Origin: Bacteroidales bacterium
Lineage (GTDB): Bacteria > Bacteroidota > Bacteroidia > Bacteroidales > Bacteroidaceae
Direction of reading: 5' to 3'
DNA length: 64,000 bases
Assembly (NCBI GenBank): GCA_015060835.1
Contig: SUXT01000003.1
Location: forward strand, 1-64,000
In this document: positions 1,185-26,100 of the stretch, in pieces
Numbering within the stretch: the first letter of the stretch is position 1
Layout of the letters: every line of letters begins with the position of its first letter
Translations under genes and position numbers: made by a program
Notes under the pieces: model-generated
The model's database searches: none
What the model saw: only the letters and a program-made list of their open reading frames with translations
What the model was told of the DNA's origin: nothing

Positions 1185-1201
1185 AGAAATGCTAATTTTT
1201 A

Positions 1202-1388
1202 GAAGCTGTTTGAATTTTATTAGAAAATAATTCTATATTTGCGCTGTTCATTTCGGCTTATTTGAGTCTATTTTGGCATCTTTTCTTTCTTATTTTTTGG
1301 AAATAGCCCGCTATTCCCTGCAAAACAACAAAGAAAATCTACTCAAAATACCTCTCAAATAATTCCGAAATAAAATTCAAACAGCTTC
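1202..1388 (+). mobile_element. 187-bp MITE, copy 1, TSD TTA/TTA
   Basis: TIR GAAGCTGTTTGAATTTTATT...AATAAAATTCAAACAGCTTC, flanked by TTA (1199-1201 and 1389-1391). About 96% identical to the reverse complement of 22874-23060. Confidence 0.9.
1209..1241 (+). promoter_or_regulatory. MITE-borne Bacteroidota promoter TTTG-N21-TATATTTG
   Basis: TTTG 1209-1212 and TATATTTG 1234-1241; fits the TTTG/TAnnTTTG consensus with 21-bp spacing. Confidence 0.55.
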
Positions 1389-1587
1389 TTAGAAGATTGC
1401 AAATATATAGCTTTATTTCCGATTATAAAATTTCGTAGCAAGCTGCAAATAGGCGAATGTTTAAAAATTCTTATTTATTTGAATTTGGAGAGGGCTACAT
1501 AGGCGATATTCCAAAAAACTTGCTTTCTTTGCAATTGTAAACGTGCGTATATGCGTTTGCACATAAAGAAACCTAAAATTTAAAGCT

Positions 1588-22846: not shown

Positions 22847-22873
22847 CTGACATATATAGCGTGAAAGTAATAA

Positions 22874-23060
22874 GAAGCTGTTTGTATTTTATTTTGGAAT
22901 TATTTGAGAGATATTTTGAGTAGATTTTCTTTCGCATTTTGCAGGGAATAGCGGGCTATTTCCAAAAAATAAGAAAGAAAAGATGCCAAAATAGACTCAA
23001 ATAAGCCGAAATGAACAGCGCAAATATAGAATTATTTTCTAATAAAATTCAAACAGCTTC
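22874..23060 (-). mobile_element. 187-bp MITE, copy 2 (inverted), TSD TAA/TAA
   Basis: Reverse complement of 1202-1388 with a handful of differences; TAA at 22871-22873 and 23061-23063. Confidence 0.9.
23021..23053 (-). promoter_or_regulatory. MITE-borne promoter TTTG-N21-TATATTTG, copy 2
   Basis: Same boxes as in copy 1, read leftward on the minus strand. Confidence 0.5.
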
Positions 23061-23141
23061 TAAATCTTTATATTTTTGCAATATAAGGAAACTTCCCCTA
23101 AATTTGCAACATTGTAAAGAAATATACAAACAACATATACC

Positions 23142-26100
23142 ATGAAAAACTTCAAGCAAATTCTCTTCGCATTATCACTGCTGTTGGCAGCGACAATGCA
23201 CTCTGCCATGGCAGGCGAACTCGAAGGCGACTCGGTGTGGGTGAAAGGCGAGGCTCTCCTAACCAAAGCAGCACAGATAAGCGCCAACAACACACAGTCG
23301 GGCTTTCCCGCCTCCAACCTGCTGCGCCCCGAAAGCGACGGTGTAGGAACCAACCAGTACATCTGGCACACATCGTGGGGCAATCCCGCCGTGCCGCCCA
23401 AAGGCACAGACACATACCTGCAGGTGCATTTCGACAAGCCACAGACCGACATCATCTTCACAATGATAGGCTCGGCATGGGTAGCCACAGGCGACACCCC
23501 CACAGAAATAATAATACAGGGAACAGACAACCCCGATGGCGAATGGACAGAGGTAGAGCACCTGAAGGAGATGCAGAACGAATTTACCGCATTCTCGCCC
23601 GACCGCTACACCTCGCCCCACATTGCCCTCGGCGCATCATACAGCTATCTGCGGTTCGTTGTGAAAAAGACAATGAATGCCGCATACAGCAGCCGCTACG
23701 ACACCAACGGCAACCCTTTTGTAAGCCTCGGACGCTTCCAGGTATACAATGCCGTGAAGGAGGCACCCACACCCATAGATCCTAAGGACAACATCAACCT
23801 GCTGTTCATAGGCAACAGCATCACCTACGGTGCAGGACTCGGCAACCCCGCCGCCGAAGCACCTCCCGCCGTATGCCGCTCACTGATAGAGAGTGCCACC
23901 GGTGTAACCACCAACCTCTACAACGGCGGACACTCGGGCATCACAACATTGGGATTCATGCCCGGACGCGAAGACTTCACACGCGTTGTCAATGCAGCAA
24001 AAACCTTCAAGAAGAACAACGGCGGACTCATCTACTTCTCCATAATGCTGGGCACCAACGACAGCGCATGTATGGGCACAGAGGGAGCGCCCGTAAGCAC
24101 CACTTCGTACAAGGCGAACATCAAGGCAATAATCGACGCACTCATAGAGGCTGTCCCCGACTGCAGGATACTGCTCAACTACCCCATCTGGTACAGCCCC
24201 AACACACACAACGGTGCCACATATCTGCAAGAGGGACTCGACCGCCTCTACAGCTACTACCCCGTCATCGACGACATTGCAGAGGAGTATGACAGAGTTA
24301 CAGCCGGCAACCGCGAAGTGTGGAACTACTTCGAAGACAACAAGGTGCTTTTCATTGCCGAAAGCGGAAATTCGGGCACCTTCTATCTCCACCCCAACGC
24401 ACTCGGCGCACAACGTCTTGCCGAAGTGTGGTCGAGAAGCCTGCTGGACATCATTGCCACCGACAGCATAGAGATTAAAAAGCCCCTTGCCGACTGGAAA
24501 TTCTTCACCCCCTCTAACGACAAGAAATATACCATCTCCACCCCACGCGGATACTACGGAGCCAAGGACGGAGTGGTTACAAACACCGCAAAGAGCGGCA
24601 TAGGAGCCTCAAGAGGCGAATTTGCATTCATCACATACAAGGGAGAGCTCTACATATACAGCATAAACGGCAAGAAATTTCTCCACCGCGACCCCATGAC
24701 CGACGGCAACGGCTGGAGCGACATACTGCTCTCCGACTCGGAGATAGAGCCCTTCAAGGTGCAGTACACCGGCGGCAATGCCACATACCCCTACTGCCTC
24801 ACATCGCTCGGCTACATAGCCAACACTGCATCGCATACACAGAAGGGTGTGGTGCTGAACTCATGGAACTATTGCGACGCAGGCAACCAGACAGCTATAA
24901 AGGAAACCGGCGACTTTGACCCGACGGAGGCGTTGCAGATGCTTGATGAGTTCTTTGCCAACCGGCTCACCGTTACCTACCGCATTGTAGACAGCGAGGG
25001 CAATCTGCTCGAAGAGCTTACAGGCATAGGCATGGCAGGCGACACCATAAGCGAATTACCCGACGACATAAAGAGACGCGCCTATACCCAATACACAATA
25101 GACACCCCGGTTACACCGGAAAAGGGCAAAGAGAACATCGTTACCATCACAGCACAATGGGAGCTACCCTTCGAACTCTCTACGGAGCAAGGTTTCAAAT
25201 GGTACAACCTTGCACTGCGCGGCGGCGAAGACTATGTAACGGCAAGCAACGGCTACAAATGCAACATCAACACGACAAAAGAGCAGGCTGCACAGGATAC
25301 ATACCAGTGGGCATTCAAGGGCAATCCCTACAGCGGCATTGTCATATACAACCGCAGCGACTCCACAAAGACTCTTGCCAAAGTAGGCGAAAAGGCAATT
25401 CTCTCGAACACCGTGTATGCATGGAACATAATTGAGGCAAACAACGGCTTCCTGCTCGCCAACAACGAGGACGGCAAATACATAAACGAATATGGCGGAG
25501 CAGGCGGAGACTTAGGTTTCTGGACCAGCCCCACCGACATAGGCAGCATATTCTCGGTGAGCGCTCCTGCCTCCATGCCTATAAAGAGTGTGAAGCTCTC
25601 TTCGGGTGCATACCTCAAGATTTTCACCTCCTCCAAAGAGAAGGCAAACGGTCGTGCAGTGCTTGTCATTCCCGGCGGAGCATACGCCTTTGTAGCCACC
25701 GGCTACGAGGGCTCGGATTGGGCACCCTTCCTCAATGACCTCGGATACACAGCGGCAGTGCTCACCTACACCACTCCTCCCACATCGCACAGCGCACCGC
25801 TGAAGCAGGCACGCGACGCAATGAAACACCTCCGCGAGAATGGCGAGGAGTACAACGTCACCACAGGACTGATAGGAGTGATAGGCTCCAGCGCCGGCGG
25901 ACACCTTGCCTCTACAGTGGCAACACACACCAAAGGCGACGAGCGCCCCATCTTCCAGATACTCTTCTACCCCGTAATAACCATGGACGCTACATTCACC
26001 CACACCGGCTCGCGCGAAAACCTCATAGGAAAGAATCCTCCTCCCGCGATTGTGAAGCTCTACAGCAACGAAAAGCAGGTGAGCGAAGACACCCCTGCCG

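Follow-up and report, generated by a model that had tools for sequence, protein, structure and literature searches.

An IS1031/IS5-type MITE of Bacteroidaceae with a conserved foldback core

The 187-bp repeat that occurs twice in the window (the whole 64,000-nucleotide stretch of DNA analysed here) belongs to the MITEs of IS1031/IS5 type and has moved, and the conserved part of the element is a foldback core, not the promoter-like string that it also carries. We regard it as rather probable that this MITE carries a conserved foldback module acting as a single strand. The ends would then be those of an IS1031-like insertion sequence of the IS5 family, and the body would be the module itself.

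Copies, ends and movement

The two copies are 96% identical to each other and end in 20-bp terminal inverted repeats (TIRs), GAAGCTGTTTGAATTTTATT. Their coordinates, the inversion of copy 2 and the TTA/TTA and TAA/TAA flanks are as the initial annotation gave them, and its view that the element is non-coding holds for ORFs of at least 90 aa, none of which is contained in either copy. The features of the two copies are as follows, where R1 is a covariance model described below.

1202..1388, plus strand: MITE copy 1, 187 bp, in the orientation of the promoter proposed in the initial annotation; empty site in sister species G021
1199..1201, no strand: left target-site duplication of copy 1, TTA (single TTA at the empty site)
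1389..1391, no strand: right target-site duplication of copy 1, TTA (single TTA at the empty site)
1202..1221, plus strand: left TIR of copy 1, GAAGCTGTTTGAATTTTATT
1369..1388, minus strand: right TIR of copy 1
1222..1251, plus strand: variable side arm of copy 1 with the −7-like box, where conservation is lowest within the element (61% pairwise identity)
1209..1241, plus strand: sigma-ABfr-like promoter string of copy 1, TTTG-N21-TATATTTG, degenerate in older copies
1266..1350, minus strand: conserved foldback core module of copy 1, with covariation and strand preference; the minus strand is the well-folding strand
1270-1347, minus strand: R1 match of copy 1, 91 bits
1300..1317, minus strand: apical hairpin of copy 1, GGAATAGCGGGCTATTTC, tetraloop CGGG; found across phyla and 90% conserved in the genus of the window
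1279..1280, minus strand: predicted tandem G.A internal loop of copy 1, half in the 3′ arm of the minus strand; several lineages
1338..1339, minus strand: predicted tandem G.A internal loop of copy 1, half in the 5′ arm of the minus strand
22874..23060, minus strand: MITE copy 2, 187 bp, inverted
22871..22873, no strand: left target-site duplication of copy 2, TAA (locus L016)
23061..23063, no strand: right target-site duplication of copy 2, TAA (locus L016)
22915..22992, plus strand: core module of copy 2, where the plus strand of the window folds well; R1 match of 87.3 bits
23021..23053, minus strand: promoter-like string of copy 2

We searched the host genome, a 2.64-Mb draft in 158 contigs. 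The 187-bp query gave 47 matches genome-wide, of which about 40 span all or almost all of its length, and the TIR ends matched 211 times at up to two mismatches, versus four matches for a reversed control pattern, so the repeat is not a chance one. Identical 3-bp duplications flank 36 of 44 complete elements, the chance expectation for identical flanking 3-mers being about 0.017. Every one of these duplications is of the form TNA (TTA in 22 cases, TAA in 12, TCA and TGA in one each). Complete elements range in size from 51 to 991 bp. The sample of 44 mixes copies found with the 187-bp query and with a terminal-repeat query, and the figure of 40 of 44 for elements with the core is inflated because the former query collected part of the sample.

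Movement, as proposed in the initial annotation, is borne out by a clean empty orthologous site for copy 1. It lies upstream of rnr in G021, a sister species represented by a Bacteroidaceae MAG from the caecum of water buffalo (contigs of JAFYLO01); both flanks of the insertion align there around a single TTA, with no element between them. The result applies to copy 1 alone, the region of copy 2 being insufficiently syntenic. G021 has the terminal repeat in abundance, some further species of the genus have it too, and none of 24 genomes sampled from other families does. The repeat thus has the attributes of a MITE: it is 187 bp long, non-coding, bounded by TIRs and TNA duplications, multi-copy and missing from an orthologous site.

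Mobilisation by an IS5-group transposase, which the initial annotation had thought compatible with the duplications, gained support from two relatives with matching ends. In a partial copy from the same genus (L089, in G021), a TIR with TTA at its flank, GAAGCTGTTTAAATTTTATT, precedes the truncated gene of an IS5-type transposase (DUF4096 and DDE_Tnp_1 domains; NCBIfam transpos_IS5_3). In another genus of the same family, L100 is a complete IS of 901 bp; it encodes a 266-aa transposase, its TIRs are near-identical and its duplication is TAA. The L089 transposase gene stops after about 152 residues (L089:1027-1700), and another repeat (CCTGTCCATCCGCATTTATAATGCGG) comes next. Profile searches of the host draft genome with PF01609 and PF13586 found no transposase, and a partner was detected in relatives only.

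Elements of the IS1031 subgroup have TNA duplications and a TIR that reads GAACCTGTC... (PMC12016507), and the window element therefore fits this subgroup. It resembles IS1031-subgroup members of the IS5 family (e.g., ISLrh, PMC12016507) in the TIR start GAA-CTGT, the 3-bp TNA duplication and a partner of ~0.86-0.9 kb that encodes a DUF4096+DDE_Tnp_1 transposase (NF033580). Unlike them, the window elements have no transposase, and the search of the host draft genome revealed no intact partner.

Because elements with the same ends and no core exist (L052, L048 and L051), the core is not required for transposition as such. With its 51 bp, L052 is probably close to the smallest element that the transposase could mobilise; at L052:625-675 its two terminal repeats lie nearly back to back within a TAA duplication. 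The interiors of L048:1001-1991 and L051:998-1498 contain a different family of repeats, whose ends are ACTGTCCGGTAAA...; a MITE seems to be nested there. Longer variants in the host genome, of about 256-628 bp and with unchanged ends (L030, L034, L041, L043, L049, L050 and L053), have extra small palindromic modules of ~70 bp inserted at a few positions (e.g., GTTGCGATTAAACGAGCGCAATGTGAAC...GCAACTT), a pattern of modular growth. Contigs of the host genome often break 100-300 bp past a terminal repeat (e.g., L054, L055, L057 and L061); the element fragments the host assembly, so that its real copy number is masked, as would be an intact IS.

The promoter-like string

The initial annotation read the element as a mobile sigma-ABfr promoter, TTTG-N21-TAnnTTTG, which is spread by the element and transcribes across itself into neighbouring genes. 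The string is present in both copies (1209-1241 and 23021-23053) as TTTG-N21-TATATTTG, with the TTTG within the TIR. Copy 1 faces rnr (RNase R, TIGR02063), and copy 2 is directed, in antisense, into an acetylesterase gene of the SASA type (PF03629), both as had been described. The boxes match the published Bacteroides consensus as quoted in PMC7366714, and both are intact in young copies and in about 35 sampled copies altogether. In the window, TTTG-N19-21-TAnnTTTG occurs five times versus 0.76 expected, two of the five being the two copies of one element sequence, and dinucleotide shuffles of the element contain the pattern in 0.9% of cases. Promoters on MITEs are also already known, from Correia elements (PMC10969869) and from BrickBuilt of P. 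gingivalis, which is IS5-type as well (PMC4596501). Promoter activity of BrickBuilt/MITE464/MITEPgRS has been shown in E. coli lacZ assays (PMC4596501).

The copy alignment tells against such a role, since no segment of the element is less conserved than the one that holds the −7 box. When 19 diverged copies from the genus are compared, identity is 66% for the −7 box and 61% for the side arm, whereas it is 90% for the apical core and 91-92% for the TIRs. Older copies have lost the −7-like box, and most relatives in other genera lack the boxes. What fixes the −33 TTTG is solely its position inside the TIR. Moreover, the predicted promoter transcript is the complement of the strand that has the conserved fold.

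Gene orientation neither proves nor excludes promoter use. Among 35 classified copies, 13 lie between divergent genes and five between convergent genes; 12 of the 17 at tandem-gene sites are co-directional and five opposed, which is no significant bias (p = 0.14). These counts rest on crude ORF-based gene calls. Taken from sequence comparison, the promoter reading appears weak, and we consider it unlikely to explain the element: the MITE and its movement stand, and the comparison lends no support to a portable promoter being what the element is for, although the string may still have promoter activity.

Next to copy 2 we noted a further consensus-like site, TTTG-N20-TAAATTTG at 23075-23106, which is likely the native promoter of the 1099-aa GDSL/acetylesterase gene at 23142. 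Copy 2 inserted 14 bp upstream of this site, which itself lies 35 bp upstream of the gene start.

The foldback core and its relatives in distant bacteria

The whole element is predicted to form one long hairpin; its RNA MFE is -71.9 kcal/mol for the minus strand, compared with -52.1 kcal/mol for the plus strand, both far beyond those of shuffled sequences. DNA-parameter folds favour the minus strand too, by less. A tandem G.A internal loop, 5′-UAGAUUU / AAAGAUG, is readable in the elements of the window, Delta I, LacPavin, Bacteroidales S147_9, Draconibacterium, Olivibacter and Rhodobacteraceae; in other elements one G.A is replaced by G.G or is different. Searches against Rfam 15 returned only miRNA matches far below threshold and an unrelated group II intron, and in the open-access literature we found no paper that prints the 12-bp apical word.

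In another genus, a MITE (L099:2340-2531) is built in the same way, but its arms are different and its apical ATAGCCCGCTAT is identical. As the apical word is kept in this element, the 18-mer GAAATAGCCCGCTATTCC was scanned as an exact word across 85,462 species genomes. Among the matches listed there are more than 89 genome stretches, versus about 8 expected by chance on our estimate. The sites that we inspected are central in palindromic elements ~180-270 bp long, whose TIRs differ and whose duplications are TNA or ANT; the invariance of the apical word in these distant members is by construction. The carriers belong to Bacteroidota, Desulfobacterota and Pseudomonadota, with taxon names as in the sequence records, in which MAG taxonomy may be wrong.

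In Desulfobacterota-type MAGs the elements have ends GGGCTCGGTC, GGAACGTGGACG and GGGTTCGCGC, TNA duplications and many copies; the 18-mer occurs 373, 104 and 53 times per genome at up to two mismatches, versus 0-2 times for reversed controls. Other elements of Bacteroidota have ends AACCTGAGTTCG and ANT duplications (ATT, ACT), which are reminiscent of the ISL2 group. The ends are GGGTCCGTGG in Rhodobacteraceae and GAGCACCGAT in Pseudoalteromonas. Carriers available in culture include Pseudoalteromonas sp. NBT06-2 and Olivibacter domesticus DSM 18733. A PF13340 search of the genomes of distant hosts gave few matches and none with matching ends, and for the Desulfobacterota and Pseudomonadota elements transposases with matching ends were not found.

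The 18-mer alone was rejected as a criterion of membership, as at least four of its matches in coding DNA are chance ones. It had no match in viral contigs, and a single match of the TIR there was judged a chance match in coding sequence. In a plasmid and phage search the 187-bp element gave only a weak match, to an unannotated faecal 'Bacteriophage sp.' record. This record (L397, MT836387.1) has two R1 matches and may be a mislabelled bacterial contig.

For covariation we used an alignment (A3) of 27 cross-lineage cores, taken on the minus strand. RNAalifold run on the raw cross-lineage alignment recovered the apical hairpin only, because MAFFT misregisters arms of unequal length, and the fold of the window copy therefore served as the reference for scoring the cores. 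Paired cells amount to 76.9%, versus 61.7 +/- 1.2 in shuffles, and both sides have changed in 24 of 33 pairs. The covariation score is 0.378, versus 0.167 +/- 0.014 in shuffled alignments and at most 0.224 in slid controls. The cores thus covary in a common fold, as members of a structured-RNA family would. The covariance model R1 recovered held-out elements at 58-79 bits over the full length of the model, versus 25-27 bits, local and over 18-20 nt, for chance 18-mers in coding DNA. An R1 survey found the module in 2 of 396 sampled Bacteroidota genomes; its first look was loose, only 12 candidates were scored per genome, and it probably misses diverged members.

Correia elements are genus-restricted in the literature, and their ends and core differ from those of the window element. 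As short promoter-carrying MITEs with many intergenic copies, the Correia elements of Neisseria resemble it (PMC10969869). Chunjie of Geobacter uraniireducens, a host formerly placed among the deltaproteobacteria, is alike by description, with 178-235 bp and many intergenic copies (PMC10969869). BrickBuilt, MITE464 and MITEPgRS of Porphyromonas gingivalis are likewise MITEs of Bacteroidota with IS5-family TIRs; they differ in their TIR, GAGACC..., and BrickBuilt in its 23-nt tandem repeats, and the available part of their description reports no comparable cross-phylum foldback core (PMC4596501). The nearest precedent is MRSC-65-2, an example of the known class of mobile structured repeats in diverse phyla. 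It is a single long stem with strong covariation, in dozens of copies per genome and in diverse phyla, some near transposases (PMC11109978). Its reported conserved repeat, UYCCGG, is absent from the window core, although the two families may overlap.

Strand preference and working form

The minus strand is defined by the apical motif, independently of folding. It folds better than its composition predicts in 19 of 21 elements and in all 16 core modules examined. We also compared the arms by Watson-Crick identity alone, which favours neither strand, and the mismatches read on the minus strand were G.T in 138 cases versus A.C in 50 (29 elements versus five, p = 4e-5). Some elements are related, and the sign tests thus overstate independence; with a single element kept for each lineage, the count is about 14 of 16.

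In two-module elements, R1 matches lie on both strands about 100 bp apart, the second module being inverted, and the opposite-strand modules have apical words such as GGACTATCGGGATAATTC. In six of eight cases the plus strand folds better in this second module. Strand preference therefore tracks module orientation in most cases. A preference for one strand that flips with the module points to a single-stranded working form, RNA or ssDNA. A DNA cruciform is hard to reconcile with it because a cruciform is identical on both strands.

In place of selection on one strand, a strand-biased mutation process could have produced the excess of G.T. If so, the element could be an ordinary palindromic MITE with a functionless fold, in which template switching keeps the palindromy and biased mutation gives the asymmetry. 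Palindromic MITEs are common, clustered compensatory changes can arise by template switching, and the core-free elements with the same ends (L052, L048 and L051) transpose. Such a process would not account for an apical motif, a tandem G.A loop and a module size that recur across phyla with unrelated arms and ends, and chromosome-wide mutation bias would not flip, as the preference mostly does, in the inverted second module. We therefore think this explanation improbable.

A strand-specific ssDNA hairpin, formed for example during replication, as in attC sites or the ends of IS200/IS605, agrees with a strand preference that has no accompanying bias in transcription orientation. The two-module elements, which would offer one hairpin per strand, and the weaker preference of the DNA-parameter folds point the same way. 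The excess on the favoured strand consists of G.U-type wobbles and tandem G.A, which are more typical of RNA, and for this reason we favour RNA over ssDNA. Nor, to our knowledge, do IS5-type DDE transposases require ssDNA. A working form of ssDNA thus seems rather unlikely to us.

Under the reading that we prefer, an IS1031/IS5-type MITE whose module acts as a single strand, the working form would be a hairpin of RNA, present in transcripts that run across the element, and we lean modestly towards this form. The orientation of neighbouring genes is random, so readthrough of the right strand is not guaranteed, which counts against this reading. The conserved CGGG/CGAG apical loop and the tandem G.A loop would be contacted by a widespread factor of the host or the element. 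On entering a new host lineage, the module may have its ends swapped for those of a resident IS5-type element, which would then mobilise it. As the core is dispensable for transposition as such, it may instead contribute to spread, to tolerance by the host or to expression. More tentatively, the core could be an undescribed transposon-borne structured RNA, shared across phyla, with a widely conserved binding partner and with ends adapted to the resident IS5-type transposase; this we hold as possible and with some doubt.

MITEs are usually viewed as lineage-specific remnants of local IS. Here, the body is common to several phyla, the ends differ, and the body appears to be under one-strand selection. 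If this is true, small transposons would be vehicles for a functional single-stranded module that reaches hundreds of copies in some genomes, and the question arises of what reads the CGGG-loop hairpin.

Several two-module elements (L254, L249, L398, L399, L303 and L305) have a third, tiny hairpin between the modules, e.g., CCCCGAAGGGG, and the whole could fold as a cloverleaf. The same two-module, three-hairpin type also occurs on alphaproteobacterial plasmids, where the apical loops have diverged.
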